Positions 14,121 through 35,340 of a DNA stretch of 35,340 nucleotides are shown here, piece after piece (position 1 is the stretch's first letter; each line of letters opens with the position of its first letter). Where the stretch lies: IMG/VR virus record IMGVR_UViG_3300008110_005814, positions 1 to 35,340 of that record; one strand, given 5' to 3'. This stretch comes from a virus. The position numbers were made by a program, and so were the translations under genes. Under the pieces are notes generated by a model. It searched no databases. It saw only the letters and a program-made list of their open reading frames with translations, and was not told the DNA's origin.

Positions 14121-15429
14121 ATCCTTCTTTTATAATGGCTTTAACGGAATCTATTTCACTTTTTTCGTAATCAAACGATAATAATTTCATTTGATTATAT
14201 ATTAAAGTTTCTTCAGATTCTCTTAACTTATCTTTTAGTTCTTCAATCGGTAAATTTGATAATCTAATTATTTCCCCAATTACTTTTTCTAATCTAACTT
14301 TATCATCTAATTCCTCATCATAACTTTCATCTATTAAACCATTAAATGTTTTAAATCCCATATCTCTTATGTCTTTAAGATAATGGGGAGGCCCTGCAAC
14401 TAAAAAAGGTTGTAAATACATAATTGGCTTGAATACCTTTTCTGATACAAAACCCTGTGGTTTGAAAAATATAGTATCACTAATTAGGCTCATCGCACTT
14501 TCTTTATATGGTCTTATATCTTCAAACCCATATCCACTTATTTTAAAATTGGTTTCAAAATCTACTTTTTTCTCTTCCAATGAAATAAATAACTTATAAT
14601 CATCAATATATCCCAAATCTTTTAATTGGTTTTCGTAATCATATCTTACTCCACCTAATGTATCATAGAATTTTGGATTGTATGAAATTAGAAATTTATC
14701 TATTATATTGTTCTTATGTATTTCCGAAATTATCTTAACCCTATGATGATGTGGATATTGATTGAAGCTAAGAAAATGGTATTTCTTCTCTTCGTAATTC
14801 AAAATTTGCGAAACATCGTTTGATTTTAAATTATGTTGAAAGTATCTACTACTTCGATTTAAATAATAATTTATTTTTATAAATGAAACGTTTTTTGATT
14901 TATATTTAGTAAAATCGTTTAGATAATCATTGTATAAAAAAATTATTTTTTTATATGATATGGTTTTTAGTATCTCTTCAACAAAATAATCATTTAAATG
15001 CCCCTCATGTGAATAGTTAATTACTATTGTAGCATTTATCTCTTTTAGTTTTTCAAATAAACCTTTATCAATTTGCTTAATATGATTTTTAAAAAAATCT
15101 ATGTGCCCAAATGGCTCAATTACAAAGAAAGTTTTTTTAGAGCAGAATTCATTCTTGCGTTCTATCGCTTCATCAACTGAAATCCGATTAATTGTTAATT
15201 TGGTTTTAGGATCAAAACCATTTTGGGGAATAGATTGAAACCCCATTCCATTCCATAAAACACTTATTTCATTACCAAAATTGTTGAAAAGGGCCTTAAT
15301 TAAATGCCCCATATCACTAGAATTATTTTCTAATAACCAATTTATGGAAAAATCTAAAACATTTTTTGGTTGACAGTTTGGTAAAATTAAATTATTAACT
15401 TTATTTTCGTATAATAAATTAAGCTCCAT
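14095..15429 (-). CDS. putative glycosyltransferase (family with TEKxFKP-like motif, copy 3)
   Basis: The 444-residue protein (ATG at 15429; an upstream in-frame start is only TTG) shares a core with two other proteins here: a strand KYHFLSFNQYPHHHRVKI, then later VSEKVFKPIMYLQPFLVAGPPHYL and MGFKTFNGLIDESYDEELDD, then helices with LIYNQ. The EK..fKp...pflv.g pattern followed by a GFkTF helix resembles the donor-binding end of GT-B fucosyltransferase-like enzymes, but a full fold match cannot be shown. The N-terminal 180 residues differ from the other copies, which suits different acceptors. It overlaps the TPP-subunit gene by 11 bases and the SGNH gene by 26 bases. Confidence 0.62.
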   Translation of the reverse strand: MELNLLYENKVNNLILPNCQPKNVLDFSINWLLENNSSDMGHLIKALFNNFGNEISVLWNGMGFQSIPQNGFDPKTKLTINRISVDEAIERKNEFCSKKTFFVIEPFGHIDFFKNHIKQIDKGLFEKLKEINATIVINYSHEGHLNDYFVEEILKTISYKKIIFLYNDYLNDFTKYKSKNVSFIKINYYLNRSSRYFQHNLKSNDVSQILNYEEKKYHFLSFNQYPHHHRVKIISEIHKNNIIDKFLISYNPKFYDTLGGVRYDYENQLKDLGYIDDYKLFISLEEKKVDFETNFKISGYGFEDIRPYKESAMSLISDTIFFKPQGFVSEKVFKPIMYLQPFLVAGPPHYLKDIRDMGFKTFNGLIDESYDEELDDKVRLEKVIGEIIRLSNLPIEELKDKLRESEETLIYNQMKLLSFDYEKSEIDSVKAIIKEGYECQKNIL

Positions 15430-15961
15430 AATATAATTCAGGATACTCAACTAAACAATGTACACCTTTATTATTCATAGCATATTTGTATGATAGTTCG
15501 ATATCTTGCCAAGATTTTAAATCGTGAAATTCTATATTTTTACAAATACTTTTAAATTCTTCCAAATAGTTACCCTTATGTTGATGTCCTGGATCCAATG
15601 GTTTATCAGAACCTTTACCTAACCTAATTAAGACATGGGGTTTAACACCTGTCATCATTTCATACTTATCTAAATGATTTACCATTTGGTTAGTAGCTGA
15701 AATAATAAAATCCCAACGAGGATAGAATGTTACAACTAATTTACCCGCCATTGCCAATCCTAAACTCATACCCATTTGTGTTTCTTCCATAACGGGTAAT
15801 TCAATCATAAGATTTTTATCAACATTATCTAACGTTGTGCTCATAGGATTTCCTCTATAAACTATTTGTTGGCCTATAAAAATTACATTTTCTTTTTTTG
15901 CCAACTCCTCCATCATCTTTGATAAGGTGTCTTTATAGGGAGTATATTCTGGTGAACTCAT
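15419..15961 (-). CDS. TPP-dependent enzyme, pyrimidine-binding (E1-beta-like) subunit
   Basis: The 180-residue protein matches the pyrimidine-binding domain of transketolase / 2-oxoacid dehydrogenase E1-beta: PVMEETQMGMSLGLAMAG (56-73) includes the conserved Glu that activates thiamine diphosphate, followed by VVTFYPRWDFIISATNQ (76-92). It lacks the C-terminal transketolase domain of full E1-beta, so it is a minimal subunit. Its likely partner, the diphosphate-binding subunit, is encoded at 22845-23477, about 7 kb upstream. Together they would form a 2-oxoacid decarboxylase- or transketolase-like enzyme, perhaps making a modified sugar or its acyl group. The substrate is unknown. Confidence 0.75.
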   Translation of the reverse strand: MSSPEYTPYKDTLSKMMEELAKKENVIFIGQQIVYRGNPMSTTLDNVDKNLMIELPVMEETQMGMSLGLAMAGKLVVTFYPRWDFIISATNQMVNHLDKYEMMTGVKPHVLIRLGKGSDKPLDPGHQHKGNYLEEFKSICKNIEFHDLKSWQDIELSYKYAMNNKGVHCLVEYPELYYGA

Positions 15962-16860
15962 ATAATATATTTTATTAATTCTTCGTTTACAAATTTATTA
16001 TTTATTATTGATGATGGATGCCCATACCAATCAAAATTACCACTTACATTTTCACTAAATAAAACTTTTTTTAATCCATTATAATTATCTAATTCCGCTT
16101 GCTTTTTAATAGCGTATTCATATAACCCACCCTTTCTTAATCCCTCATCTTCGTAAAACCAAAATTTATCAAATGGTATTTTATCTAAATAAATTTTAAA
16201 GTATTCACTCTGATTGTAATAATAATCAAAACCTTCGTTTAAACAAATTTCACCTTCGTAAACATTTCTCGAATAGAACTCAGGCTCATAAAATATATCT
16301 TTTATTGTAAAATACTTATAATCAATTTTTTCACTATCTAAATAATTTGATAAATCTAACACCGTTTCAACAAATGAATATGAATGCTGTTTACTTAATT
16401 TTATATGTAAGGTTTTTAAAATATTATCTATTCCCAAATACTTTGAATTATTAACTTCATAATATCCACCTGTCAAAAACCAAAACTCATTCTTGTAATT
16501 TTTTGGATTGGGTAAATAATTGTTTGTGTGAGAACCAATTTCAAGTTCTCCATAATAATCTTTTATCAAAAATGAATGTCTATAAGGTTGTGTCCATTGA
16601 GTAAAAACTTTATCAACTATACCACCATTTTTTTTAATGTATTCAACCCAATATGTTACAGTTCTTTTAATAGTATTATTATCATTAGTTGGATTACCTA
16701 AATTTAATACTACATAATCTTCCCCTAATTTATATTGTAACCATTCAGGCCACTGCCACTCTTCCCTATTATTATCTTTTTTTAGATGGTTAAGTGGTTT
16801 TAAATTAGTAAAAGAACATCCACTACATATAATGTATTTTTTATCCTTTAAGATATACAC
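15958..16860 (-). CDS. SGNH-hydrolase-like protein (copy 2)
   Basis: The 300-residue protein begins with a strand and nucleophile block SGCSFTN (Ser16), has LGNPTNDNNTIKR (about 74-86) resembling the Gly/Asn oxyanion block, and ends with WYGHPSSIINNKFVNEEL, where the His of GHPS takes the place of the usual DxxH. It is a close relative of the protein at 17794-18696 in length and in all three blocks. The start is GTG at 16860, needed to include the first strand; no ATG is available. It overlaps the preceding SDR gene by 20 bases. It is probably an esterase or acyltransferase for sugars; the missing Asp before the His leaves activity uncertain. Confidence 0.65.
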   Translation of the reverse strand: MYILKDKKYIICSGCSFTNLKPLNHLKKDNNREEWQWPEWLQYKLGEDYVVLNLGNPTNDNNTIKRTVTYWVEYIKKNGGIVDKVFTQWTQPYRHSFLIKDYYGELEIGSHTNNYLPNPKNYKNEFWFLTGGYYEVNNSKYLGIDNILKTLHIKLSKQHSYSFVETVLDLSNYLDSEKIDYKYFTIKDIFYEPEFYSRNVYEGEICLNEGFDYYYNQSEYFKIYLDKIPFDKFWFYEDEGLRKGGLYEYAIKKQAELDNYNGLKKVLFSENVSGNFDWYGHPSSIINNKFVNEELIKYII

Positions 16861-17797
16861 TCTTATACCAATTTATAGTTTTTTCTAATCCTTCGTAAAT
16901 TGTGGTTTTTGCACCCCAACCTAATTTATCAAATATTTTAAACGAATCAATTAACCTCACCGGAATCATCGGAGCCTTATTATTTACATATTCAATCGGA
17001 GATTCTAAACCTTCAATTTCTTTCAATACATTAATAACATGATTTACTGAATAGCCTGAATTAGAACCCACATTATAGATTTCATGCCCTTCTTCCTTTT
17101 CCATAATAACCTGCAATGCTTCTACAAAATCTTCAACATAAAGAAGGTCTCTCACTTCAGTACCATCTCCCCATACAGGAATTGGATTTAATCTAGTTGC
17201 AACTTTAATAATAGAAGCGGGTGTAACGTGGCATTTATCCAAATCATATTTATCATGCGGCCCATATAAATTTGCTGGTCTAACAATTACGGTCTGCATT
17301 GGATTGATAAGGATTTCAGAATACATCTTACAAAGAACTTCTGCATATCGTTTCATCCAACCTACCGGATAATAAGTTTTATAGATTGATTCGTATAGAA
17401 AATCGGATTCACAAACTGGTCTATCACCGCTTTCTGGATAAATTGTAGATGATGATAAGAATATAAATTTCTTTATCTTATTCTTATACGCCTTCTCTAA
17501 TGTTAATGCGTTTATTATTACATTAGGAGTAACATGAAGTAGAGGAGCATAAATTGTATCAACTGCATTAGAAGTTGAGGCTGCACAATGAAACACCACA
17601 TCAACTCCCTCCATAATTTGATTAACAAAATTTTCATCTCTTAAATCTCCCTGAACTGATTCACCGAAACCTTCTAAATTTCGAGTGTATCCATGATTAC
17701 GAAGGTTTTTATATCCTTCGTTGTATAATCTTTCTGCCAAATTTCTTCCTACGAAACCGGTAGCACCTAATATTAGGATTTTGCTTTCTTTATTCAT
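16841..17797 (-). CDS. NAD-dependent epimerase/dehydratase (extended SDR)
   Basis: The 318-residue protein has the Rossmann motif GATGFVG (11-17), DLRD after the second strand, FHCAAS, and FLSSSTIY, RPANLYGP, VWGDGTEVRDLLYVED, all typical of nucleotide-sugar epimerases and dehydratases (GDP-fucose synthase, UDP-glucose epimerase groups). The usual catalytic YxxxK reads VGWMK, with Lys in place but Val where Tyr is expected; two tyrosines lie just before. It overlaps both SGNH neighbours (4 and 20 bases), forming an SDR-SGNH pair repeated from 17794-19600. It probably modifies a nucleotide sugar; the exact product is unknown. Confidence 0.82.
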   Translation of the reverse strand: MNKESKILILGATGFVGRNLAERLYNEGYKNLRNHGYTRNLEGFGESVQGDLRDENFVNQIMEGVDVVFHCAASTSNAVDTIYAPLLHVTPNVIINALTLEKAYKNKIKKFIFLSSSTIYPESGDRPVCESDFLYESIYKTYYPVGWMKRYAEVLCKMYSEILINPMQTVIVRPANLYGPHDKYDLDKCHVTPASIIKVATRLNPIPVWGDGTEVRDLLYVEDFVEALQVIMEKEEGHEIYNVGSNSGYSVNHVINVLKEIEGLESPIEYVNNKAPMIPVRLIDSFKIFDKLGWGAKTTIYEGLEKTINWYKSVYLKG

Positions 17798-18696
17798 ATA
17801 ACTTCTTTTAATAAAATATCATTAACAAATTTTTTCCAAGTTTTTGTAGAGGGATGTCCCGCTACTATTGTATTACCTTCTATCCACCTATCTTCTTCTA
17901 TATTATCATATATCCACTCATATACTCCTCCATATTCACCATATTCATTCTTATAAAACCAACACCATTTATCCCAATCAATTAAATCATAAAATCTTTT
18001 AATATAAAGGAGATGTTCAAATCTTTTCTCACTACCTCTATAATTAAATTTTTTTTCAGAATATAATTTTTGAAGTATTGGTTCAACTTCCTCATATCTT
18101 AATGGATTGATAACCACTTCATTATTTTCTATCTGTCCATCAAATATACATTCTTCGGTTGATAAATTATCTTTTATAAAAAAAGTTTTTAGTTTAATTC
18201 CTTTACTTTCCACAAAACAAATAAGATAATGAAACCATTCTAAAAAAGAAAGTGTATCTTCTTCATCACTTTGAACCCATTTTATTTTTGATTTAAAGAA
18301 TTCCTTTTCTTTTTCAAAATCATCTTTTTCTTCCATCCAACCGTAATAAAAATTACCACTCAAAGCGTAAAATCCATTTTCATAATTCGTATAAGTATAA
18401 TCAGTTTTATGAACAGTTGAATTTGGTATAGTTGGAATGTAAATCGAATCCCTATTGAAAAATGTCCAACATGCTAATAAAGTTATATCACTTATACCTT
18501 TATCTAACAATTCATTTGCTTTATAAATTAAACTTCTAACAATAGTTTTTACATCATTTGTAGGTGAGCCAACATTATATACATTTTGATAATGCTCTTT
18601 TAAATGTTCTGGCCAAAAATAACTCTTCTTATCTAACGTCGCGTGGAAATTAGTAAAAGAACAACCACTACAAATTATGTGAGATGTAGTATTCAT
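17794..18696 (-). CDS. SGNH-hydrolase-like protein (copy 1)
   Basis: The 300-residue protein shows ICSGCSFTNF (Ser13), VGSPTNDVKTIVRS (a Gly/Asn block) and AGHPSTKTWKKFVND at the end, the same three blocks as the copy at 15958-16860. Middle parts differ but keep aromatic-rich segments and a WFYKNEYGEYGGVYEW stretch matched by WFYEDEGLRKGGLYEY in the other copy. It overlaps the upstream SDR by 29 bases and the downstream SDR by 4 bases (ATGA). It has no signal peptide. It is likely an O-acyl esterase or transferase acting on a cytoplasmic sugar; the final block has His but not the usual Asp. Confidence 0.66.
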   Translation of the reverse strand: MNTTSHIICSGCSFTNFHATLDKKSYFWPEHLKEHYQNVYNVGSPTNDVKTIVRSLIYKANELLDKGISDITLLACWTFFNRDSIYIPTIPNSTVHKTDYTYTNYENGFYALSGNFYYGWMEEKDDFEKEKEFFKSKIKWVQSDEEDTLSFLEWFHYLICFVESKGIKLKTFFIKDNLSTEECIFDGQIENNEVVINPLRYEEVEPILQKLYSEKKFNYRGSEKRFEHLLYIKRFYDLIDWDKWCWFYKNEYGEYGGVYEWIYDNIEEDRWIEGNTIVAGHPSTKTWKKFVNDILLKEVI

Positions 18697-21602: not shown

Positions 21603-22860
21603 TTGTTAATGATTTAAAATAATTTTTACAGCTCTCTCTTTCCCAAAAATTAAGAAAATGAGATTGATTATATAATAATATATCCTTTGCTTCCGAATAT
21701 ATTTTTTTAAGATTAGATTTATTTAATTCTTTTACCACCTCAACTACATTTACCATTCTATCTCTAACATCAAATATTTCATCATAGTCTTCACTCCAAA
21801 AATCATTAAATGTTTTGAACCCATAACTTCTTAATCTCTTTAGATGTTGATATGGTGCTAAAAATATACCTAAATGTAAATTGATAAATGGTTTAAAACT
21901 TTTTTCAGTTAGGTGTTCTTCGTTATTTTCAAACGATGTTTCGGTTATTAAAGAACAATATGAATTTATATAACTATCTTTAAAATGAGTAGTTTTAGTA
22001 TCACCGAAAAAATTATATAAATTTTTGGATATAGGTTCGTATTCACTTTTCTTTTTGGTATAAAAAAAGTATTTTAAAAACCTTTCATATTCAATTAGAG
22101 AATTTCTATCAAAAAATTTTGAAAAGTGTTCTATACTAAAAATGTTCTTTCCCTCTACATCTTTTTCGTTTCCATAAAATGGGGAAAACTCATATGGAGA
22201 AAATAATAATGACCAATCAGTATTGTAGATTAATTCGTTTTTATATAATCTAGCTAAAAAAGAAACTCTATGAGCTTTTGGAACTCTATTTAAACACAAA
22301 AAATTATATTTTCTTTCAGTAGTATTATCAAAAGTTTGTAATTCAAACCTATAACCTAAATCGTTAATTTTGTTCTCCTTTAATGCCTTATTAACAACCA
22401 AAGAAGTATGTTCTAATAACCAATCTGAAACATTGACGTTTAATCCAACATCTCCTATTGATTCTTTGTAATAATTTATTAAGTTTTTGTTTGCAAAGTA
22501 AATGTAGAACGAAGAGTGTGGTAAATTATTACAAATAATAAATTCATTTAGTTGCCGAAAAAAAGAGATATGGTCTCCTCCACCCTCATGTTCTCTTAAT
22601 AACAAAACTTTTAACTTTGAATTATGAATAAGAGATAGTATTGTTGGTGAAAAAAATCCTCCTTTAAAAATACAATTAAAATCAGTATTTAAATCAATTG
22701 GAAAATATATATTATCCAATCCCCCTAACTCATTTAGTTTGATGTTATTTACATTAATGTATTCACGACAATAAGGATGTCTACACCCAAAATTATTTCC
22801 GTTGGGTATAGGCCCTAAATCGTTCCACTCTTCAAATAATAAATTTAAAACGCTATCCAT
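21592..22860 (-). CDS. putative glycosyltransferase (TEKxFKP-like family, copy 1)
   Basis: The 422-residue protein carries the family core: RKYNFLCLNRVPKAHRVSFL (about 200-219), SLITETSFENNEEHLTEKSF with KPFINLHLGIFLAP following, then YGFKTFNDFWSEDYDEIFDVRDR and LLYNQSHFLNF near the end. The N-terminus contains LLREHEGGGDHISFF. The same core occurs at 14095 and 19601, with N-terminal halves that differ much more. A nucleotide-sugar-dependent transferase is likely by analogy with GT-B fucosyltransferase motifs and by the sugar-gene neighbourhood. It overlaps the TPP subunit by 16 bases and the sulfotransferase-like gene by 11 bases. Confidence 0.62.
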   Translation of the reverse strand: MDSVLNLLFEEWNDLGPIPNGNNFGCRHPYCREYINVNNIKLNELGGLDNIYFPIDLNTDFNCIFKGGFFSPTILSLIHNSKLKVLLLREHEGGGDHISFFRQLNEFIICNNLPHSSFYIYFANKNLINYYKESIGDVGLNVNVSDWLLEHTSLVVNKALKENKINDLGYRFELQTFDNTTERKYNFLCLNRVPKAHRVSFLARLYKNELIYNTDWSLLFSPYEFSPFYGNEKDVEGKNIFSIEHFSKFFDRNSLIEYERFLKYFFYTKKKSEYEPISKNLYNFFGDTKTTHFKDSYINSYCSLITETSFENNEEHLTEKSFKPFINLHLGIFLAPYQHLKRLRSYGFKTFNDFWSEDYDEIFDVRDRMVNVVEVVKELNKSNLKKIYSEAKDILLYNQSHFLNFWERESCKNYFKSLTNVK

Positions 22861-23477
22861 TTTCCGCTTCCGTAATGTGGATATTTTGATTTGTATGTAT
22901 AATGTATTACATCAGATGGAATTTCTCTCTTAGTGTCATTCCATGTCTTTTCAGTTGGAGTGTATGTGGAAACTCCATTATCTTCCACAACAAAATATAA
23001 TGGTAATTGAAATCTCCTAGCGTATTTATGAACTTCATAAAAAATACCACTTTCAAAACTCATATCCCCAACAAATACCCATACTTTATCATCCCCACCA
23101 TCTTTTTTAATAGCAGATGCTACACCCAAAGCAATTGGTAATGTCCCACCTACAATTGCGGATGCATAGAATCGATTATCGTGGTCACACATTGTAATCG
23201 ATTTACCATCTTTAATTACTTCGGTAGCATAATCGGCGGATAATCCACTCAATACCCAGTGGTAGTGAGAACGCCATGTTGAAAAAACCCAATCGGTTTC
23301 TTTTATACGCTTGAATACTTCAATTAGTTCAGCTTCGTTTCCATTTGATAAATGAACCGGGCCTCTAATTTTACCGCCTTCCCATATATCAACTATACTT
23401 TGTTCAAACTGAATTAACTTTTCTACTGTCCAATCTATATCTCTAATGATTGGGTATTGTTCTAAATTTTTTATCAT
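22845..23477 (-). CDS. TPP-dependent enzyme, diphosphate-binding (E1-alpha-like) subunit
   Basis: The 210-residue protein matches the diphosphate-binding domain of TPP enzymes: SAIVGGTLPIALGVASAIK (106-124), then GDMSFESGIFYE (137-148), with VVEDNG (163-168) closing the GD...N metal/TPP motif. STWRSHYHWVLSG (67-79) resembles the His-containing segment of E1-alpha. At 210 residues it lacks the C-terminal part of normal E1-alpha (about 330 residues or more). It pairs logically with the pyrimidine-binding subunit at 15419-15961. It overlaps the aminotransferase-like gene by 4 bases. A keto-acid or keto-sugar intermediate shared with that gene is possible. Confidence 0.78.
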   Translation of the reverse strand: MIKNLEQYPIIRDIDWTVEKLIQFEQSIVDIWEGGKIRGPVHLSNGNEAELIEVFKRIKETDWVFSTWRSHYHWVLSGLSADYATEVIKDGKSITMCDHDNRFYASAIVGGTLPIALGVASAIKKDGGDDKVWVFVGDMSFESGIFYEVHKYARRFQLPLYFVVEDNGVSTYTPTEKTWNDTKREIPSDVIHYTYKSKYPHYGSGKWIAF

Positions 23478-25703: not shown

Positions 25704-26435
25704 CTATAATTCTAATTTATCTATAATGTTATTTTGTATATCATTTACATTAAAATCTTGATACAAAAGAGCGTGATTACCGTTTCCACTACTATCCCAC
25801 GCTTTAAATCTATTAAGGTTTTCCAAAGTGAACTTATATTTTGCTAATGTAAATCTTCTAACAATTTCAGGATTAAATAAATCTAATTCTTCTTTGTTTA
25901 GAACCTTTTCCATAATAATTACATCATCAATCCAACCCTTATACCACCAACTATATTCTTGTAAATGTGGTTCAATATAATTTGGTGCAGCGGCTCCGAT
26001 AAATAATGGTGTATTATCATAACTTACAACAGGATATGTTATAGGTGCTTCTTTGGTTTCACCATTATAAGTAACTCTAAAAATTTTGTTGGTATAATCT
26101 ACTGAAAAGAATATCTCTTGCCATTCCTTTTCAAAATCGTAAATAAAGGTGATGTTAATGTTTTCCGCATCAATCGGTTTACTCATCCATAATTGTGCAC
26201 TTACAACATAAAAATCATTTTCTTTATTTACAAATACACCGGAATGAAGCCCACATTTAGAAAATATACCATAGATTTCATCTCCTCTATCTTCAGTTTT
26301 TTGTATCTTAAATTTACTATAAATTGTAAAATCCTTTTGGAAAAAAGTTTTTAAATTTGGTTTCTTCGATGTGTTAAAAGTTGATTGATCCCAAACTTTA
26401 TAACTAATGTCTTTATTGAAATATAAGTGATTCAT
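25704..26435 (-). CDS. stand-alone LamG/concanavalin-like domain protein (copy 2)
   Basis: The 243-residue protein is a single LamG-like beta sandwich: a strand FTIYSKFKIQKT, a central EIFFSVDYTNKIFRVTYNGE (strand pair), LFIGAAAPNY, the hallmark GWIDDVIIMEKVLNKEEL (LamG closing helix) and DSSGNGNHALL near the end. LamG-like domains bind glycans or proteins. No signal peptide is visible. Its ATG overlaps the stop of the radical SAM gene by one base (TAATG), as does the other radical SAM-LamG pair. The domain resembles those inside the GT7 genes at 29869-34926. It may bind the glycan or target on which the radical SAM partner acts. Confidence 0.74.
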   Translation of the reverse strand: MNHLYFNKDISYKVWDQSTFNTSKKPNLKTFFQKDFTIYSKFKIQKTEDRGDEIYGIFSKCGLHSGVFVNKENDFYVVSAQLWMSKPIDAENINITFIYDFEKEWQEIFFSVDYTNKIFRVTYNGETKEAPITYPVVSYDNTPLFIGAAAPNYIEPHLQEYSWWYKGWIDDVIIMEKVLNKEELDLFNPEIVRRFTLAKYKFTLENLNRFKAWDSSGNGNHALLYQDFNVNDIQNNIIDKLEL

Positions 26436-27820
26436 TATCTAATACTTTTACATAAATTCCAAAATTCTTCTAACTCTGGAAAAGTTTTTACAAAATCAGT
26501 TCCTCTTCTTCTATCATGCTCACTAAAAAATCTATAAAAATCTTTTCTATCTCTTTTTACAGTATGGTCTTCTTTTGGAGCAACAACCACATCGTATATT
26601 CTTCTCAATTTGTGAATTTCTACATCGGTATATCCAATCGGATTTTGTGTTCCCAAACTTTCGTAGAAGTCCATCAATTGTGCTTGCTCAAATACTTCTT
26701 TGTGCCAATCATCGGTTATGATGTTAGCCGCCTGATGATGTGGATGTCTTAAATACGAACTATCCAATCCAATAGGATAAAACCAATACCTATCAGGATT
26801 CGTAAATTCTTTTTTAAGCTGATATACATCTTTAATCAATTTTTTATATGATGGGATACTTAAAAGATTATAAGTTCCCATAATCGAAATAGTAAGTTTC
26901 GGTATTTCTTCCAATAATTCAGAACATCTATCATACCATTGATTATAATCAAATCCATTTCTAATATAATTAGCTTGCTCTCCCCACCCATCACAAGAAG
27001 TGAATATAATAAATTCTCTTACCAACCCATCACTACTTATTCTTTTTATTTTTTCTTTGGCCTGTTGGTAGAGTTTTTCCGGTGCCCCCAAATTAGAATT
27101 TATTGCCAACTTTAATTTTTGGTTTGGATTATCAATTACATAATCAAATACTTTAAATGTATCTTTATGTAATAAAGGTTCTCCTCCGGTTATTCTAAAG
27201 TTTAACAATGATGGATATAAATTAGGCCACCATTTCCAAAATGCCTCTACATAAGGATTATGTTCGGTTTGTTTATATGGTTGCTTACCTTCTTTGATAA
27301 TATGGTCTAATCCATTATGACGAGTTGAAGTTGGATAAGCTCCAAACTGCTCAATCTCTTCCCACCATTGTGTTGAGAATTGAGGATAGCAATACGAACA
27401 TTTAAAGTTACACGCATTACTAAATGAAACTTCAACATACGAAGGATTTACATCATCCATATAAGATGAATTTTTAATCTCATCAAAATGAGGCCAAGCC
27501 CATTCTTCCGCAGATTTAAAAGTTCTATCAGAAAATTCGTTTGAATTATCTTCTACCTTCCAACAATAATCGCATTCGGTAGGCCTTAATCCTTGCAACA
27601 TTTCTCTTCTTAATTCCTTTTTATATTTGGTATTATGAAGTGCAGAAGGGTTATCTACTAAATCTTCTTTAATAATTTTGTGTATACCAGGATGGTGGCA
27701 ACTATGATTCTGTCCGATGTGAAGATGCAATGTAACTTGCTTCCACTTTGCTAAACAAAATCCTTTACCCACCGAATTTAATTTTCTTCGTATCTCCGAG
27801 TATCGTTCTGTATTATCCAT
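26435..27820 (-). CDS. radical SAM protein with extra N-terminal Cys cluster (copy 2)
   Basis: I use the ATG at 27820 (461 residues) because the longer frame starts at TTG and because it then aligns with the paralogue at 28481. The radical SAM motif is CNFKCSYC (Cys137, 141, 144). Cys22, 41, 83 and 86 in conserved contexts (GFCLAKW, SCHHP, ECDYCW) precede it and could hold a second iron-sulfur cluster, as in twitch-type radical SAM proteins. ITGGEPLL follows. The C-terminus keeps HDRRRGTDF and FPELEEFW, also found in the paralogue. Such enzymes modify peptides, sugars or other substrates by radical chemistry; no substrate peptide is visible nearby. The start overlaps the upstream LamG gene by 8 bases. 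Confidence 0.8.
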   Translation of the reverse strand: MDNTERYSEIRRKLNSVGKGFCLAKWKQVTLHLHIGQNHSCHHPGIHKIIKEDLVDNPSALHNTKYKKELRREMLQGLRPTECDYCWKVEDNSNEFSDRTFKSAEEWAWPHFDEIKNSSYMDDVNPSYVEVSFSNACNFKCSYCYPQFSTQWWEEIEQFGAYPTSTRHNGLDHIIKEGKQPYKQTEHNPYVEAFWKWWPNLYPSLLNFRITGGEPLLHKDTFKVFDYVIDNPNQKLKLAINSNLGAPEKLYQQAKEKIKRISSDGLVREFIIFTSCDGWGEQANYIRNGFDYNQWYDRCSELLEEIPKLTISIMGTYNLLSIPSYKKLIKDVYQLKKEFTNPDRYWFYPIGLDSSYLRHPHHQAANIITDDWHKEVFEQAQLMDFYESLGTQNPIGYTDVEIHKLRRIYDVVVAPKEDHTVKRDRKDFYRFFSEHDRRRGTDFVKTFPELEEFWNLCKSIR

Positions 27821-28481
27821 ATTTATTTGGTCTGGATTTCGAAACAAAATCCATTATTTTATCGTGCTTAAATTTTACGGGCTCTGATATGAATGCATGA
27901 TTACCATTACCACTATTATCAAATATTTTAAAGTTTGTTTTTTCTGATGTATCTAAACAACTAAATAAACTATCTTCCTGCAAAACTTCTGATGTTTTTA
28001 AGTTAAAGTTTATTTCATGTGTTTCCAACAATCTATCATATAATACAACTAAATCTAAATTACCATTTAATATATTTTTTTCAGTTGTTTTCTCATGCAC
28101 ATTATCCGATAAAAAAGTAAAGTAATTATCTTCTTTTACTACATTTTGAAAATCACATTTAAAATCATATCCTATTTCAGTATTCAAATCAGTATAAACA
28201 AACTTTTGCTTTCTATTATCAATTCTTATAAAGAAATCAAACGTTTTCTTTACATCACATACTATATTAGAGAAGTATTCATCTCCAACTTTATATTGAA
28301 AATGAATTTTACCACCCTCAATTATTAATGTTTCAGAAGAGAGATTTCTCCTAAACAAATAACCAAAAGGTTTATTCACATCATAACTACCTTTTAATCT
28401 TAAAGAATACCCATCATTTAAAGATGTAAAATTTTTAAGATTAGTGCTGTTGGTAGATTTATTTGGTATATAAAAAATCAT
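27813..28481 (-). CDS. stand-alone LamG/concanavalin-like domain protein (copy 1)
   Basis: The 222-residue protein has the LamG features in order: strands ending in GYSLRLKGSY, FFIRIDNRKQKFVYTD, NGNLDLVVLYDRLLETHEI and NSGNGNHAFISEPVKF. The LYDRLL..HEI stretch and the SGNGNHA loop match the LamG ends in the GT7 proteins and the other stand-alone copy. It overlaps the stop of the radical SAM gene upstream by one base (TAATG) and the start of the next radical SAM gene by eight. It has no signal peptide or membrane segment. Binding of a glycan or partner enzyme is likely; no catalytic role is visible. Confidence 0.72.
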   Translation of the reverse strand: MIFYIPNKSTNSTNLKNFTSLNDGYSLRLKGSYDVNKPFGYLFRRNLSSETLIIEGGKIHFQYKVGDEYFSNIVCDVKKTFDFFIRIDNRKQKFVYTDLNTEIGYDFKCDFQNVVKEDNYFTFLSDNVHEKTTEKNILNGNLDLVVLYDRLLETHEINFNLKTSEVLQEDSLFSCLDTSEKTNFKIFDNSGNGNHAFISEPVKFKHDKIMDFVSKSRPNKYG

Positions 28482-29875
28482 TATGCTTTACCTTTTCTAC
28501 ATTTTTTATAAAATTCTTCATATTCAGGAAATACTTCTAAAAAGTTAGTTCCTCTTCTCATATCGTGGTGTCTTACAAAGATAAAGAAATCTTTTCGATT
28601 TTTCAAGAAAGTTGAATCATCATCGTGATTTTTCATCCATTCCGCTATTCGTTTAACCTTTGTGATTTCAATATCGGTAAACCCATATCCATCATCACCC
28701 ACTCTAACTTGTTCATAGAAATCCATAAGTTGTGCCTGTGAGTAAACCTCATCTATCCACTCATTATCCAATACCTTAACACTTTGATGTGGAGGCCAAC
28801 GAAGATATGAACTATCTAATATAATCGAACTACCATAATACCTTTCCGCACTATGGTATTCTTTTTTAATCTGATACACATCCTTAATTAAACCTTTATA
28901 TGATGATACTGAAAGAGCGTTGTAAGTGCTCATTATTATAATTGTTAATTTTGGATTTTCGGATAATAATAGATTAACCCTATCCATAAATAAATTATAA
29001 TCAAATCCATGTCTAATGTAATTCGCTCTCTCACCATGTGCATCGCAAGATGTAAAAAGAATAAATTCATTTACTCTTTCCTCATCCATCAATTTTTTAA
29101 TCTTAACTCTAAATTCATTAAATATTTTTTCAGGAGCATTTAGGTTACTATTAATCGATAGGTTTAGATTTTTATTTGGATTTTTTGATTCGTTGATAAA
29201 ATCTAAAATGTCAAATGTATCTTTTGCCAAAAGTGGCTCACCGCCCGTAATTCTGAATGTATGTAAATCCTTATACAAATCAGGCCACCATTTCCAAAAC
29301 GCTTCTACATAAGGATTTCTTTTATTATGTGGAATTGGCATTTGGTCAGTTCCCTTCAAATAATCTAAATTGTTAAAATTAGTTGATGTAGGATATGCAC
29401 CATGTTGTTGTATCTCTTCCATCCATTGTGAACTAAAAGCCGGCCCACAATATGAACATTTAAAATTACAAATGTTTGAAAATGAAACCTCAACATACTT
29501 TGGGTTTATATCTTTAATACCTTTGGTTTTTAATACCTCATCAAAGTAAGGTAAAGACCACGGTTCGGATGATTTATAAATTCTATCTGAAAAATCATTT
29601 GAATTATCTTCGATGTTCCAGCAATAATCACATTCCTTTGGTCTTAACCCTTCCAACATTTCTCTTCTTCTATTTTTCTTAAAAGAAGTGTTGTGTAGTG
29701 CAGATGGATTTTGTGCAATTTCCATCTCCGATATTTTGTGTGTGACAGGGTGATGACAAGAGTGGTTATGGCCGGTTTGTAATTGTAATGTAACTTGTGT
29801 CCATTTGGCTAAGCACATTCCCTTACCAACCCCATTTAATTTTTCTTTTGTCGCCTGAAAGTGTTCGTTTAACAT
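28481..29875 (-). CDS. radical SAM protein with extra N-terminal Cys cluster (copy 1)
   Basis: The 464-residue protein has the radical SAM motif CNFKCSYC (Cys136, 140, 143) and four earlier cysteines at 21, 40, 82 and 85 (GMCLAKW, SCHHP, ECDYCW), the same layout as the copy at 26435. ITGGEPLL and LFTSCDAHGERANYIRHGFD also match. The C-terminus has HDMRRGTNF and FPEYEEFYKKC. Conservation along the whole length indicates gene duplication. It overlaps the GT7::LamG gene upstream by seven bases. The pair with its LamG gene (27813) repeats the same order as 25704-27820. Substrate unknown; modification of a sugar, a glycoprotein or a peptide are options. Confidence 0.8.
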   Translation of the reverse strand: MLNEHFQATKEKLNGVGKGMCLAKWTQVTLQLQTGHNHSCHHPVTHKISEMEIAQNPSALHNTSFKKNRRREMLEGLRPKECDYCWNIEDNSNDFSDRIYKSSEPWSLPYFDEVLKTKGIKDINPKYVEVSFSNICNFKCSYCGPAFSSQWMEEIQQHGAYPTSTNFNNLDYLKGTDQMPIPHNKRNPYVEAFWKWWPDLYKDLHTFRITGGEPLLAKDTFDILDFINESKNPNKNLNLSINSNLNAPEKIFNEFRVKIKKLMDEERVNEFILFTSCDAHGERANYIRHGFDYNLFMDRVNLLLSENPKLTIIIMSTYNALSVSSYKGLIKDVYQIKKEYHSAERYYGSSIILDSSYLRWPPHQSVKVLDNEWIDEVYSQAQLMDFYEQVRVGDDGYGFTDIEITKVKRIAEWMKNHDDDSTFLKNRKDFFIFVRHHDMRRGTNFLEVFPEYEEFYKKCRKGKA

Positions 29876-31311
29876 TTACAATTTATTAAAACTGAATTAT
29901 TTCCTATTTCTTCTATACCTAACAATTCGTATGTTAAGCTATTCATACCATCATTTTTCCAATCGTATTTCCCCTGCTGCATTTCTAAAATATATCTTCT
30001 TTCATTTCTCGCAGTAGTTTCTCCTTTTGCCCACTTACCATTAACCAATCCTTCAGTTTGATGTGGTAGACATTCAAATCTACCATTTCTTCTATGAGGG
30101 ATTACGGTAGAAGGTATTTCTATTTTCTCTTTCGTAAAATTTACATTTGTAATTTTACCATTATTTTCATTACCACTTAAATCTTCCAGCAATCCATCAT
30201 TAAAAGAATTGAAATCATAGTGAAGCTGTAATCCACTTTCCTCACACTCAAATGGTATATTTTTTATTTCATTATCGGTCAAACATCTATCATACAATCT
30301 TACTTCTGCTATTTGACCTTTGAAAAATTTGTTTGGATAATTTTTATTTATTGATGGAGATGTTCCCAAATAATAACTTTCACTTCCATATCTTTTTAAA
30401 TCTCCATTATATTCCATAGGTGATTGAACTCCTGTTCCAAATCTCGCATCTGTTTCTCTGCCATTAAGGTAAAAATGTATTTGCTTATTGTATGAATCAA
30501 CTTTTAATGTCACCCAAGTCCAAAGGTTCTCATATCTCTTCATCCACATATATTGCATCTCTCCTTCATTATTCCATAACATCGAAGTAAATGCTCTACT
30601 ATTATTATATGAAATGCCATAATCATATCCAGGTCTTCTAAATACAGGATACTCCCAAAATCTTCTTTCATTATCACCAATCAAATAAATTGGAATCTTT
30701 TCCTCTTGCTGATGTGCCTTTACTAATAATGATAGAGTGTGAGAACGATTACTTAAAAATCTTATTGAACGACTTTGAGGTATTTCAATAAAAGAGTTTT
30801 CTCCATTAAAATTTGCTATATCAAATTCGGTTTTGGGTCTGATATATGTTTGGTCTGCCATTCCATTGATAGCACATCTCCAAAATAGGTCATCATCTTC
30901 CATACCCCAATCCCAATAATCATTCGAATAACCATTCGTTTTATAAACCTGTTCTTTTGTAAATAAAACTGCACCACCAAAGTATTCTTCATACTTTAAG
31001 TTGTAATCGGTTTGTGAAATATGAACTGCCAAATGTTGTGGCAAATCTTCGTTATAACTATAATCACAGCTATCATCTTCCGGTATCATATCGATGTCAT
31101 GCCATACAATATAATCACACCCATCTTTAAATGCAACATCGGCTGCAATGTTTTTCATCTTACCCCTATTGAATAATTTATCATCACATTGGTGGGCAAA
31201 ATAAATCTTATGCTCAATACCCCTATCCTTCAAAAATTTATGAACTCTGGGTGAGAATTGTGCCAAATGCTCTTCTCTATTTCTATATGGAACACATACT
31301 CCTAATTTCAT
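29869..31311 (-). CDS. GT7 (beta-1,4-galactosyltransferase-like) with inserted LamG domain (copy 3)
   Basis: The 480-residue protein starts with a beta-1,4-galactosyltransferase-type fold: VPYRNREEHL (7-16), LFNRGKMKNI, HDIDMIP (71-77) as the metal-binding DxD, YFGGAVLF and NGYSNDYWDWGMEDDDLFWR (126-145), which holds the catalytic acidic cluster. Residues about 165-390 are a LamG domain (LYDRCLTDNEI, LSGNENNG). Then the GT7 C-terminus resumes with GRFECLPH and DGMNSLTYELL, as in animal beta4GalT. So the LamG domain is inside the GT7 fold, not just attached. It overlaps its neighbours by 4 and 7 bases. It probably transfers a hexose from UDP-sugar; the LamG part may bind the acceptor. Confidence 0.82.
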   Translation of the reverse strand: MKLGVCVPYRNREEHLAQFSPRVHKFLKDRGIEHKIYFAHQCDDKLFNRGKMKNIAADVAFKDGCDYIVWHDIDMIPEDDSCDYSYNEDLPQHLAVHISQTDYNLKYEEYFGGAVLFTKEQVYKTNGYSNDYWDWGMEDDDLFWRCAINGMADQTYIRPKTEFDIANFNGENSFIEIPQSRSIRFLSNRSHTLSLLVKAHQQEEKIPIYLIGDNERRFWEYPVFRRPGYDYGISYNNSRAFTSMLWNNEGEMQYMWMKRYENLWTWVTLKVDSYNKQIHFYLNGRETDARFGTGVQSPMEYNGDLKRYGSESYYLGTSPSINKNYPNKFFKGQIAEVRLYDRCLTDNEIKNIPFECEESGLQLHYDFNSFNDGLLEDLSGNENNGKITNVNFTKEKIEIPSTVIPHRRNGRFECLPHQTEGLVNGKWAKGETTARNERRYILEMQQGKYDWKNDGMNSLTYELLGIEEIGNNSVLINCKC

Positions 31312-32753
31312 AGTTCTACTGAAATGAATTTAGTTTTATCACTTAATTTTTTTTCTTCTACTTTTTTATATCTCAATGTATTCAGGCCTTCAATCGAATA
31401 AAATAACATTTCGTTTTTTAATGAGTTATATCTTAATTGATTTTGTCTAGTTTCTTCATGCACCCAACGATTTCCTTCAACACTATTACTACTATGTTTA
31501 AGTGATTTAAATGAACCATCTTTTTTGTATGGAACAACTGCTTCAATTAAAAACTTTTTATTCATTAAAGTATTGTTTTGGCAATTTACGATTTCAGCAT
31601 CGAAACCATTACCACTTAAATCAATCAATTTATCTCTTCTAAAATGTTTAAAATCATAATAGAGTTTTAACCACTTCGAAGATTTATACTTACCAAAATT
31701 ATTAAGTAGGGATTTCTTAGCCGATTCTTTATATATTTGTTCTATTTCAGGCTTCGATAATGTTTTATCAAATACCGCAAACTCATTTACAAACCCTTTA
31801 AAATAATAGTTTTCATAATTTTTTGCCGGATTTGCAACACCCAAATAAAAATCTTCTACATTATAATCGTATAACTCATCAACATATTCGGCTCCGATAT
31901 AAGTGTTATTGATATATAATTCAATCATCTTATTACGAGGGTTACGATTAATTACAGCGTGAACCCACATATCCGGACTAATGTCTGAAACTATACTTTT
32001 TGATTTTTCATCTTTATCCCATATATCCAATTTAAATCTATTAAAACTATTGAATGATAAAGAGAAGTTAAAACCCGGTATAGAAAATATAGTGTATTCA
32101 TCATACTCTCTATTTAGGTCATTAACTAAATCATCTGGTTTAAACTTTATTGAAATTGAAAATTCATCTTCAAATATAGGTTTAAAGTTTTGAAAAGGAA
32201 TACTGATAAATGAATCTATACCATTAAAATAAAAATAGTTTAAGTTATATTCATCGTTTTGAATTCCAAATGGCCTAGTATCTAAACTCAAATTACATTG
32301 AATACATCTTTGTAACAGGTCATCATCTTCAAATCCCCATCCCCAATATTCATTTGAGTATCCATTTATAATTTTAAAATCTAATTTATTTACAATCGTT
32401 ACACCGCCAAAATAGTTGTAAAAACTTTCTTCTCCATCAACTTTATCCGCTAAATGAGTAGGTCTATCACAATAAGAATAATCAACCTTAATGGGTAACA
32501 TATCAACATCATGAAAACAAAAATAATCAAATTCGTTTCCGCTTTCTTTATATCCGATGTTTAATAATTTACCTCTATTAAATGGTTTCTTATCCTTTTG
32601 CTCAATTACAAAAATCTCAAAAGGAATTTTCTTTGAGTTTAAATAATCTTCTAAATAAGGAATAAAGACATTAAGATGTGATTCCCTATTTCTATAAGGA
32701 ACAATAACCGCTAATTTTTTTTGTATTTCTTTTTTATTAAGGTCTTTCATCAT
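31308..32753 (-). CDS. GT7 (beta-1,4-galactosyltransferase-like) with inserted LamG domain (copy 2)
   Basis: The 481-residue protein has VPYRNRESHL (18-27), PFNRGKLLNIGY (57-68), HDVDMLP (81-87), YFGGVTIV and INGYSNEYWGWGFEDDDLLQ (129-148), the full set of GT7 catalytic motifs. Residues about 175-400 form a LamG domain ending in VFDKTLSKPEI and LSGNGFDA. The GT7 C-terminal segment then follows with GSFKSLKH and IEGLNTLRYKKV. The order matches the copies at 29869 and 33436. The two start codons at 32753 and 32750 are equivalent. It overlaps the small gene at 32737 by 17 bases. This copy keeps every acidic residue of WGWGxEDDD. Confidence 0.84.
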   Translation of the reverse strand: MMKDLNKKEIQKKLAVIVPYRNRESHLNVFIPYLEDYLNSKKIPFEIFVIEQKDKKPFNRGKLLNIGYKESGNEFDYFCFHDVDMLPIKVDYSYCDRPTHLADKVDGEESFYNYFGGVTIVNKLDFKIINGYSNEYWGWGFEDDDLLQRCIQCNLSLDTRPFGIQNDEYNLNYFYFNGIDSFISIPFQNFKPIFEDEFSISIKFKPDDLVNDLNREYDEYTIFSIPGFNFSLSFNSFNRFKLDIWDKDEKSKSIVSDISPDMWVHAVINRNPRNKMIELYINNTYIGAEYVDELYDYNVEDFYLGVANPAKNYENYYFKGFVNEFAVFDKTLSKPEIEQIYKESAKKSLLNNFGKYKSSKWLKLYYDFKHFRRDKLIDLSGNGFDAEIVNCQNNTLMNKKFLIEAVVPYKKDGSFKSLKHSSNSVEGNRWVHEETRQNQLRYNSLKNEMLFYSIEGLNTLRYKKVEEKKLSDKTKFISVEL

Positions 32754-32967
32754 TATTAGGTCTTTCGGTATCTCTCATTGGCCTAGATACACTTCCTAAA
32801 TTTTTAGCTTTTAAGATAGTATGAAATTCATGCAAATACCATTCAACTCTCGTCCCCCAAGCTGATTTATCGATTTCAAACATCCAATCATTCAAATCTC
32901 TAAGCGAAGAAGCAATGTCTTCCAATGCTCTCACTTGTCTTTCTTCTAATGTTTTTTGATCTGCCAT
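32737..32967 (-). CDS. small unknown protein, tandem paralogue
   Basis: The 76-residue protein is a near copy of its upstream neighbour (32974-33210): both share EER.VRA.E.I..SL....DWM.E.D...W..R.EWYL.EF..I.KAK..G...RP....ERP. It is probably a small helical protein with conserved Trp residues and a short basic, Pro-containing tail. No known family is recognised. The pair lies between GT7 genes and is separated from its paralogue by six bases, so it is a recent tandem duplication. It may be an adaptor for the neighbouring glycosyltransferases, but that is a guess from position. Confidence 0.6.
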   Translation of the reverse strand: MADQKTLEERQVRALEDIASSLRDLNDWMFEIDKSAWGTRVEWYLHEFHTILKAKNLGSVSRPMRDTERPNNDERP

Positions 32968-32973
32968 AAACTA

Positions 32974-33210
32974 TTATTGAGGTCTTTCGTTTGATTTATC
33001 AGGTCTTCCGGTATTACCAATCGTTTTCGCTTTTGCAATCATATAGAATTCGTTTAAATACCATTCCATTCTTTCAGACCAACCTTTGGTATCCAATTCA
33101 TACATCCAATCCTGAATGTTTTCTAACGATGTTCCAATCTTTTCAAATGCTCTAACTGCTCTTTCTTCAATGTCGATGTTTGAAGTTTCGGGTTTCTTTG
33201 ATGTAGCCAT
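32974..33210 (-). CDS. small unknown protein, tandem paralogue
   Basis: The 78-residue protein shares about half its residues with the neighbour at 32737, including the DWMYELD and MEWYLNEFYMI blocks. Its N-terminal ten residues are extra. The start lies behind AAAACAAATAAA, the same twelve-base leader as the portal gene, which hints at strong expression. No enzyme motif, Cys, signal peptide or membrane segment is visible. Confidence 0.6.
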   Translation of the reverse strand: MATSKKPETSNIDIEERAVRAFEKIGTSLENIQDWMYELDTKGWSERMEWYLNEFYMIAKAKTIGNTGRPDKSNERPQ

Positions 33211-33222
33211 TTTATTTGTTTT
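33211..33222 (-). promoter_or_regulatory. A-rich translation start without Shine-Dalgarno
   Basis: Coding-strand AAAACAAATAAA directly precedes the ATG at 33210 and is identical to the leader of the portal gene at 6199-6210. Confidence 0.45.
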
Positions 33223-33457
33223 TTAATTTATTTTGTGTTCTTTTTTTGAAAAATCCTGTTGGGAAAGGTGATTGAGTTCCACCATAATAACCTCTCATTA
33301 ATTCTAACGAAGAGTATATAATAGGCATCATATATGAAAAATTATCAATCGTTTTATTATTTTCAAACGATTCTAATATTTCAGCAATCTTTTCTGCCCT
33401 TTCAACAATTTGTTCATTGTTAATAACCTGTTTTATTATAGAACTACTTTTATCCAT
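33212..33457 (-). CDS. small unknown protein between GT7 and the paralogue pair
   Basis: The 81-residue protein has a helical N-terminus (NEQIVERAEKIAEILESFEN), a short hydrophobic stretch around MMPIIYSSLELMRGYYGG and a basic tail FFKKRTQNKLKNK. It is not similar to the next two small genes. It overlaps the end of the GT7 gene at 33436 by 22 bases and has the AAAAAACAAA leader also seen at the left edge. No family is recognised; the gap and length suit a real small gene. Confidence 0.5.
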   Translation of the reverse strand: MDKSSSIIKQVINNEQIVERAEKIAEILESFENNKTIDNFSYMMPIIYSSLELMRGYYGGTQSPFPTGFFKKRTQNKLKNK

Positions 33458-34926
33458 TTTGTTTTTTCGTTTATATCTTCTTCAGATAAGATTTTGTAAT
33501 TTAAATAATTTAATCCAATTTTTTTTGTATCAACTTTTCCAGTCAAAACTTCATCAAAATATATTTGTGAGTTTTGAACTATATCTGGATCCCAACTATA
33601 AAACTTTTCAGTTATCTTATCATCATCATCGTGAATTAAGGATTGATACTTACCCATAATTCTAGAAGGAACTGAAAGTTTTGATGTTTTTTGAATTACA
33701 TCGGTTTTAATAAATTTAGAGTATTCGGTGAAATCTATTGAATGAACTTTAACGTGATTCATCGTAATAGAAGAATCTAATATAAAATCATGATAAATCT
33801 TATTAAAGTTTATATTAAGAACTGGCTCTAAATCAGTATTTTGTTTTTTACCATTATACCCTTCTAAATAAATGTTATCAATCTCTCTTTGTTCCAATAC
33901 ATAATCAAACATTAATAGATTTGATAATTTACCTTTGTATGGAGATGAATTTAAACTTGCACAACCTACATAAATTGGTTGATAACTATAATCAATTAGG
34001 GGTGTAACTATATACGGTTGCTGGTCGCCCGTATATGGAACTTTAACACTATTAAGATATAACTCAACTACTTCTTTGTTATAATCCACAACCATAGCAA
34101 TATGATTCCATACACCTAATTCATATTTTTTGTATGCGAAACAATACTGCCTATCATTATCATAAACATTTACCCTAATAGTTCCATCGTTTTGTAAAGA
34201 TATACCGGTGTTATAACCAGGCCAACTTACCAAATACTCCTCATCTTTCGCAATTTCATCTTTACTAAACCAAAGTGATACGCTAAAACTATCTTTCGTT
34301 AAATCTTTTATCTGATTATTTGGAAATATTTTTAGGTATAAATCATTATCTTTAAAATCAATATACTTAACATTTTCCGAATACTTCTTATCGGTGATTT
34401 TAATTTTTTCAAATTCGTAATACGAGTCTATGCGAGGAAAAACAATTTCTTCATCTAACTCTATATCATTCATTCTACATCTATGTAATAAATCTAAATC
34501 CGCAAACCCCCATCCATAATACTCATTTGAATACCCATTAACGGCTTCAAAATCTTCTTTGGAGAACATTACCACTCCACCGAAATATTCCAAATATGGG
34601 AGCTTAAATGTATGTGCCGATACCTTCGTTGCCATATGGACGGGATAACCTCCAATGTGAATGTAATTGTAATCACAATCATCACTTACCGGCAGCATAT
34701 CTATATCATGAAAGCAGAAATAATCGAATCCTTCTTTGAATAGAGAGAATCCGATATTACATAACTTACCATAATTAAATGGTTTATCATCTGATTGTTC
34801 TATAATAAAGATTTCGTAATCCACATCCTTATTCTTAAAGAATTCAGTCATATGTGGAACGAAGGTATCTAACTGCTCCCTTCTATCTCTATACGGAACT
34901 ATTATTGCTATTTTAGCACCTGTCAT
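33436..34926 (-). CDS. GT7 (beta-1,4-galactosyltransferase-like) with inserted LamG domain, altered catalytic motif (copy 1)
   Basis: The 496-residue protein has the GT7 start VPYRDRREQL (10-19), PFNYGKLCNIGF (49-60), HDIDMLP (73-79), YFGGVVMF (114-121) and NGYSNEYYGWGFADLDLLHR (130-149). In this copy the usual WGWGxEDDD reads YGWGFADLD, so the Glu and the second Asp are replaced by Ala and Leu. Residues about 170-400 are a LamG domain (MFDYVLEQREI). GKYQSLIH and IGLNYLNYKIL give the GT7 C-terminus. It shares one base with the upstream gene's stop. It may use a different acceptor or be inactive as a transferase. Confidence 0.8.
   Translation of the reverse strand: MTGAKIAIIVPYRDRREQLDTFVPHMTEFFKNKDVDYEIFIIEQSDDKPFNYGKLCNIGFSLFKEGFDYFCFHDIDMLPVSDDCDYNYIHIGGYPVHMATKVSAHTFKLPYLEYFGGVVMFSKEDFEAVNGYSNEYYGWGFADLDLLHRCRMNDIELDEEIVFPRIDSYYEFEKIKITDKKYSENVKYIDFKDNDLYLKIFPNNQIKDLTKDSFSVSLWFSKDEIAKDEEYLVSWPGYNTGISLQNDGTIRVNVYDNDRQYCFAYKKYELGVWNHIAMVVDYNKEVVELYLNSVKVPYTGDQQPYIVTPLIDYSYQPIYVGCASLNSSPYKGKLSNLLMFDYVLEQREIDNIYLEGYNGKKQNTDLEPVLNINFNKIYHDFILDSSITMNHVKVHSIDFTEYSKFIKTDVIQKTSKLSVPSRIMGKYQSLIHDDDDKITEKFYSWDPDIVQNSQIYFDEVLTGKVDTKKIGLNYLNYKILSEEDINEKTKWIKVVL
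33458..33467 (-). promoter_or_regulatory. A-rich translation start without Shine-Dalgarno
   Basis: Coding-strand AAAAAACAAA directly before the ATG at 33457 lies inside the end of the GT7 gene at 33436 and equals the leader at the left edge. Confidence 0.4.
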
Positions 34927-35340
34927 TATATTAAAACTATTTGTTTGGTTAGTTTATTCCAATTACCGAAAGATACAAAGGATTTTTCAGATTTCCAAGT
35001 CCATTCAGAAAAATCTTCTAAATTTATTGAGAGTTTATTTTTTGCCAAAGCCCTATACATTTTTCGGTATTCTTCTGAAAAAGCGTAATCAGTTCCTACA
35101 TTTGCAACAGCTCTTAACCTTTCTGCACAAGTACTATCCCATTTAAAATGATGAACTTGTGTAAAACCCTTTTCAATTGGATAACGAAGGGGGTGATTCC
35201 ATCCCTGCCACCTCCAAGTTGTTTGTCCATTTATTTCTGCATAATGTTGCCCCGCAGTTACCTTTATCCTACCCTTCATAAGAGTAACCTTATTTGGACA
35301 GGCTCCACTTAAAGGGTATCTAAAAAAAGAACTAATCGGA
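34926..35340 (-). CDS. C-terminal part of a glycosyltransferase (cut by the right edge)
   Basis: An ATG lies at 35279, but the frame stays open to the window edge and the codons before it (PLSGACPNKVTLMKGRIKV) read naturally into the protein, so only the last 137 residues are present. TQVHHFKWDSTCAERLR resembles the C-terminal end of phage and bacterial family 2 glycosyltransferases, where a His-Phe-Lys-Trp segment follows the catalytic domain; the family is inferred from this short stretch. It shares one base with the GT7 gene (TAATG). Confidence 0.6.
   Translation of the reverse strand, partial: PISSFFRYPLSGACPNKVTLMKGRIKVTAGQHYAEINGQTTWRWQGWNHPLRYPIEKGFTQVHHFKWDSTCAERLRAVANVGTDYAFSEEYRKMYRALAKNKLSINLEDFSEWTWKSEKSFVSFGNWNKLTKQIVLI

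Follow-up and report, generated by a model that had tools for sequence, protein, structure and literature searches.

In a 35,340-base virus record (IMG/VR record IMGVR_UViG_3300008110_005814; this whole stretch is called the window here), three genes on the minus strand encode GT7 enzymes of the beta4GalT type in which the segment following an internal LamG domain is almost certainly the C-terminal remainder of the GT7 domain, so that LamG would be truly nested within the catalytic fold. On comparative sequence evidence, the core of the original prediction, which had called this design unusual, holds.

Layout of three GT7-like genes and nesting of LamG

All three genes are intact (Table 1), and the motifs first noticed in them (VPYRxR, HDxDM, GYSNxYxxWG, G(R/S/K)(F/Y)xxLxH and GxNxLxY) were found in the sequences. 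Pfam searches of ORF1-3 identified, in this order, Glyco_transf_7N (E 1e-18 to 3e-25), Glyco_transf_7C (E 2e-19 to 3e-18) and Laminin_G_3, a ConA-like jellyroll (E 1e-11 to 6e-16), with all matches above the gathering cut-offs. LamG lies between an N-part and a C-part of GT7 as proposed, and its size had been underestimated: the insert comprises ~225-245 rather than ~200 residues. The N-LamG-C order was observed in 200 ORFs of a first locus set and in 238 distinct ORFs of a later scan, which is far beyond chance. Because the layout repeats in these 238 distinct ORFs, an assembly artefact or a fusion of two genes was ruled out.

Table 1 Features of the window and of its GT7-LamG genes
Feature	Positions	Strand	Description
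ORF1	29869..31311	-	480 aa; LamG nested in GT7; catalytic residues complete
ORF1 GT7 N-part	30838..31311	-	Residues 1-158 (DxD D72/D74, W135, E138-D141)
ORF1 inserted LamG	30118..30816	-	Residues ~166-398
ORF1 GT7 C-part	29872..30102	-	Residues 404-480 (G410..H417, N436, DGMNSLTY)
ORF2	31308..32753	-	481 aa; LamG nested in GT7; catalytic residues complete
ORF2 GT7 N-part	32259..32753	-	End approximate
ORF2 inserted LamG	31560..32228	-	Residues 176-398
ORF2 GT7 C-part	31311..31535	-	
ORF3	33436..34926	-	GT7 with nested LamG, 496 aa; EDDD changed to ADLD, metal-ligand His kept
ORF3 GT7 N-part	34429..34926	-	End approximate
ORF3 inserted LamG	33715..34356	-	Residues 191-404
ORF3 GT7 C-part	33439..33672	-	
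Radical SAM gene	28481..29875	-	Twitch-domain, directly downstream of ORF1; NF033640, E 7.5e-97
Second radical SAM gene	26435-27847	-	Twitch-domain; NF033640, E ~1e-96
Free-standing LamG gene	25704..26435	-	Insert homologue (E 5e-19), without GT7 C-part
Second free-standing LamG-like gene	27813..28481	-	Insert HMM E 7e-9, partial
Upstream gene	34926..35339	-	3' end only; 283 aa in L122

The alternative to nesting would be fusion of LamG to a GT7 N-part, followed by an unrelated C-terminal domain. Indeed, the Pfam search gave no match for the segment C-terminal to LamG in ORF1-3, and a profile of the C-part alone (50 relatives) stayed below significance against the PDB (E 0.15). We nevertheless consider this arrangement extremely improbable, as several comparisons speak against it. 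Searches of the PDB with the N-part matched beta4GalT1/7 (profile E 1e-46, single-sequence E 2e-31), with the C-part giving a weak second, colinear match to the B4GALT1 terminus in both types of search, and the four best matches of the C-part profile among 177,635 sequences were the B4GALT1 C-terminus, in register. After removal of LamG, the spliced GT7 profile aligned with human B4GALT1 in one domain spanning residues 51-257 of the chain (E 3.5e-45). The spliced-profile and in-register matches agree with the initial claim that the C-terminal segment corresponds to the C-terminus of animal beta4GalT.

The strongest evidence for nesting comes from natural LamG-less proteins in which the two halves are joined. 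In the virus contigs L107 (225 aa) and L108 (258 aa), the N and C HMM matches (C-HMM E 1e-7 and 5e-8) are 1-5 residues apart, and in compact Chlamydiota proteins of 226-288 aa (L087, L193-L196) N and C are likewise contiguous, in both cases without LamG. N436 and G455 were invariant in 97 of 97 aligned sequences, the LamG-less L087 among them, and the C-terminal segment with the metal-ligand His and the DGLNSLxY end was found in the window enzymes. A free-standing LamG gene (25704-26435) spans positions 6-218 of the 223-position insert HMM; since it matches 213 of the 223 positions without a C-part, the insert is a self-sufficient domain. The C-part as a piece of LamG was ruled out because this free LamG gene is devoid of it and the LamG-less GT7 proteins retain it. 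Together, the spliced-profile match, the contiguous relatives and the free LamG gene support the view that LamG interrupts the GT7 fold instead of being fused at one end, and formation of one GT-A domain by the N- and C-parts in three dimensions is strongly favoured by these comparisons.

AlphaFold models of ORF1 (mean pLDDT 93.1, pTM 0.87) and ORF3 (mean pLDDT 91.5, pTM 0.86) were obtained with high scores. In Foldseek searches, the N-part of ORF1 superimposed on B4GALT1 at ~1.3 A rmsd over 151 residues, in a local alignment that stops short of the insert, and the middle part matched pentraxin/LamG-type folds, with pentraxin, PAPP-A and 4dqa aligned over ~250 columns. Profile and fold thus agree on the LamG assignment. 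The whole nested protein gave no match in the BFVD viral structures (best query-normalised TM-score 0.39 among the best 50).

Catalytic residues and the insertion point

With relatives sorted, approximately, by their best match to the window ORFs, D72, D74, W135, E138, D139, D140 and H417 were all kept in 98 of 98 ORF1-type proteins, and the catalytic residues were intact in 86 of 87 ORF2-type proteins. The DxD motif was found in all three window ORFs and, under the same sorting, in 98/98 ORF1-type, 86/87 ORF2-type and 59/61 ORF3-type relatives. WGxEDDD, with the catalytic Asp (bovine D318) and the Trp loop, is present in ORF1 and ORF2, and the catalytic set is complete in the compact relatives that lack LamG. 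Y110, which we take to be the equivalent of bovine Tyr289, the residue that selects Gal over GalNAc, hardly varies among the aligned relatives; because this equivalent is kept, UDP-Gal would be the favoured donor. ORF1 and ORF2 are very probably active as glycosyltransferases, and their chemistry would be a Mn-dependent inverting transfer, probably of galactose.

ORF3-type proteins show signs of decay: D139 was lost in 11 and DxD in 2 of the 61 approximately sorted sequences, and W135 was kept in 27. The window ORF3 itself reads WGFADLD (Ala in place of E317, Leu in place of D319) and retains DxD, the Trp, the catalytic Asp D139 and H417. H417 was lost in 14/14 relatives with a broken N-part and kept in 227/232 with an intact one; the coupled loss corresponds to about two independent events, the count being inflated by relatedness, and with so few events a formal tree test fell short of significance. 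ORF3-type proteins without DxD or the catalytic Asp that also lack the C-terminal His occur at L010, L011, L026, L041, L042, L044, L051, L053, L061, L066, L083, L155 and L156, and these are likely pseudo-glycosyltransferases beside intact copies. By their residues, the ORF3-type paralogues are probably either weaker enzymes or LamG-bearing partners.

This partial decay, together with the frequency of LamG in phage structural proteins, would be compatible with virion components whose LamG serves as an adhesin and whose GT7 part is vestigial. Such a role is very improbable, given the near-absolute conservation of catalytic residues in ORF1- and ORF2-type proteins, the location of the genes among sugar-metabolism genes and GT7 parts that are without a structural PHROG match.

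The LamG-less proteins also define where LamG was placed. In L107 and L087, the junction lies directly before GRYLSLSH and GNFRSLPH, respectively, which aligned with GRCRMIRH of human B4GALT1; LamG therefore sits just before G336, adjoining the start of the lid. In human B4GALT1, this mobile lid comprises residues 338-365, of which Met340 and His343 bind Mn, and its closure moves both residues into place for Mn and creates the helix that binds the acceptor (PMC6198961). The insertion in ORF1 is directly before G410, the equivalent of G336, and 7 residues ahead of the position of the metal ligand His343. Hence the insert follows the EDDD catalytic motif and precedes the C-terminal metal-ligand His; in GT-A terms, it separates the xED motif from the C-His (PMC7185993). 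Acceptor specificity in GT-A enzymes is generally set by loop insertions (PMC7185993), and here a domain has been inserted naturally into a well-studied class of enzymes, at their most sensitive mobile element.

Spread and history of the nested enzymes

In the search for the layout that the original prediction had proposed as a check, relatives with the same nested layout are abundant in IMG/VR contigs, with matches in 453 stretches for a first profile and at least 549 for a second; both counts are lower bounds because the scans begin from short peptide patterns. Each of 34 nested virus records searched whole carried two or three GT7 copies. In a collection of 50,697 phage records, no GT7 match was obtained with ORF1 and ORF2 as queries, or in a repeat with ORF1 that admitted E values as high as 10, which gave weak LamG matches only; searching these records with a terminase did give matches. 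The insertion is kept in hundreds of sequences from large uncultured phages, yet was not found in the phage records searched. Among GTDB contigs, four matches were found, three nested (L084-L086, in MAG contigs) and one compact chlamydial; the nested cellular matches may be binned viral DNA, their MAG contigs having similar neighbours. In the literature searched, no account of a GT7 enzyme combined with LamG or a nested lectin turned up.

The window contains phage-family matches to terminase, portal and head protease, and its nearest terminases in phage records are those of Flavobacterium phage immuto (57%) and Microcystis phage Mel-JY01 (55%). The large terminase family, which is also matched in most bacterial control genomes, was matched in 11 of 14 nested-GT7 records tested, in keeping with tailed-phage genomes. 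The carriers of the nested GT7-LamG enzymes are large uncultured tailed phages.

The window enzymes share GT7N/GT7C, DxD, the C-terminal metal His and DGLNSLxY and, in the case of ORF1 and ORF2, WGxEDDD with the beta-1,4-galactosyltransferases of CAZy family GT7 (B4GALT1, B4GALT7). In contrast to these, they are viral, carry a LamG of ~240 residues at the lid start and have a predicted transferase role. Compact GT7 proteins of Chlamydiota, L107 and L108 have the same catalytic domain with the C-part adjoining the N-part and no LamG. Such proteins scored above cut-off in 7 of 234 Chlamydiota genomes, and the Chlamydiota loci L189 and L193-L196 encode compact beta4GalT-like GT7 of 226-288 aa. 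In giant viruses (AaV, Mimivirus LCMiAC01), the same catalytic domain was found by fold, with matches that span only ~160-190 local-alignment columns. Because of these chlamydial and giant-virus examples, GT7N-type enzymes are not animal-only, and the earlier statement that beta4GalT-type enzymes are mainly known from animals does not stand in an exclusive sense: they reach well past animals.

In a tree of the catalytic part, in which many deep branches are poorly supported, the LamG-bearing proteins formed groups holding ORF1, ORF2 and ORF3, and the LamG-less proteins clustered. The LamG-less label required two changes, one of them owed to the mislabelled L165, which has ~250 residues, LamG-like by eye, between its N- and C-part. 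A tree of LamG repeated the catalytic groups (ORF1, 99; free-standing, 97), with four changes for all groups compared to a minimum of three, and no LamG loss was found inside the sampled LamG clades. The simplest history suggested by these trees would be one insertion followed by an ancient triplication, with co-divergence and no LamG swaps among paralogues. As compact relatives occur in bacteria and animals, the direction would be LamG gain, not loss.

In each of the ORF1-, ORF2- and ORF3-type groups, conservation is lowest in LamG (mean pairwise identity in ORF1-type proteins, 0.51 for LamG versus 0.71 for the catalytic part). Faster evolution of LamG is expected of a specificity module and equally of a structural spacer. 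A passive insertion, with LamG merely tolerated at a surface loop and adding stability or solubility, would accommodate this low conservation as well as the complete catalytic set of the compact relatives. It is made improbable by the retention of LamG in hundreds of virus sequences and across the ancient triplication, with no sampled loss in LamG clades.

Gene neighbourhood and possible roles of the LamG insert

Of 80 loci, 71 had the upstream gene next to GT7 and 64 had the radical SAM gene there. The 283-aa version of the upstream gene in L122 gave no Pfam match; by eye, it looks like a GT-A-type glycosyltransferase. In L122, the upstream side consists of a methyltransferase, an epimerase-like gene and the 283-aa gene, and in the window the downstream side comprises two radical SAM and two LamG genes, epimerases, a TPP-enzyme half and an aminotransferase-like gene. 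Both radical SAM genes of the window are paired with a free-standing LamG gene, and radical SAM beside LamG-GT7 is common across loci. The GT7 neighbourhood is most likely a glycan-synthesis island, and it is likely that this island acts on the host or virion surface.

Overall, we favour, with some reserve, GT7 enzymes of a phage surface-glycan island in which LamG at the lid hinge couples acceptor capture to catalysis. ORF1 and ORF2 would transfer sugar to a surface-glycan or glycoprotein acceptor during infection, LamG, fixed at the lid hinge, would bind or position this acceptor, and its placement would couple donor binding, lid closure and acceptor capture. For LamG itself, we see about even chances that it is an acceptor-recognition module.

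Appended lectins are known from the ppGalNAc-transferases, in which a C-terminal ricin-type lectin serves acceptor choice without being inserted in the fold; in the window enzymes, by contrast, LamG lies inside the fold. The ppGalNAc-transferases (GT27) are GT-A enzymes related to GT7 (PMC7185993). PGAP4 offers an analogue of the design: its GT-A fold is interrupted by a module whose insertion puts the catalytic cavity near the acceptor, although it is a GPI-GalNAc transferase outside GT7 and its insert is a hairpin of tandem transmembrane segments (PMC5785973). An inserted transmembrane hairpin of this kind was not found in the window enzymes, where the insert is LamG, and PGAP4 is a design analogue only. 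In lactose synthase (B4GALT1 and alpha-lactalbumin), a second module contacts Phe360 and Ile363 of the lid and alters acceptor choice (PMC7565966). Alpha-lactalbumin is a separate polypeptide of unrelated fold, and the same role for LamG is hypothetical. A more specific and speculative version, which we consider unlikely in its entirety, would have LamG as a hard-wired acceptor specifier at the hinge of the lid, a built-in equivalent of alpha-lactalbumin that is varied to track surface glycans on a conserved galactosyltransferase engine (the N-part), with ORF3-type proteins as regulatory or scaffold subunits.

Alternatively, LamG could be an assembly module that docks paralogues, free LamG proteins or radical SAM enzymes and makes no contact with the acceptor. 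Homologous free-standing LamG genes lie in the same cluster, LamG-GT7 genes usually come in sets of two or three paralogues, LamG is retained in the decayed ORF3-type enzymes and human B4GALT1 forms dimers (PMC6198961). A simple docking module would not need the hinge site and could be terminal, and each LamG group tracks the catalytic domain it belongs to; we therefore regard assembly as rather unlikely, though worth keeping in mind. The matched pairs with and without LamG provide a means to test how GT-A enzymes gain acceptor specificity, and the nested phage genes could supply new galactosyltransferases.

Several further features of the window were noted. Three proteins (13299-14120, 15958-16860 and 17794-18696, minus strand) share a similar N-terminal CSGCSFT/CNGCSHS motif; they had no Pfam match above cut-off and are possibly SGNH-type hydrolases or acyltransferases. 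A thiamine-diphosphate enzyme is split over two genes 7 kb apart (22845-23477 and 15419-15961, minus strand), an E1-type half and a transketolase pyrimidine-binding half. Between ORF2 and ORF3 (32754-33210, minus strand), two tandem small ORFs encode similar proteins of ~75-80 aa, a duplication, and carry ..DWMFEIDKSAWGTRVEWYLHEFHTILKAKNLG.. and ..DWMYELDTKGWSERMEWYLNEFYMIAKAKTIG...
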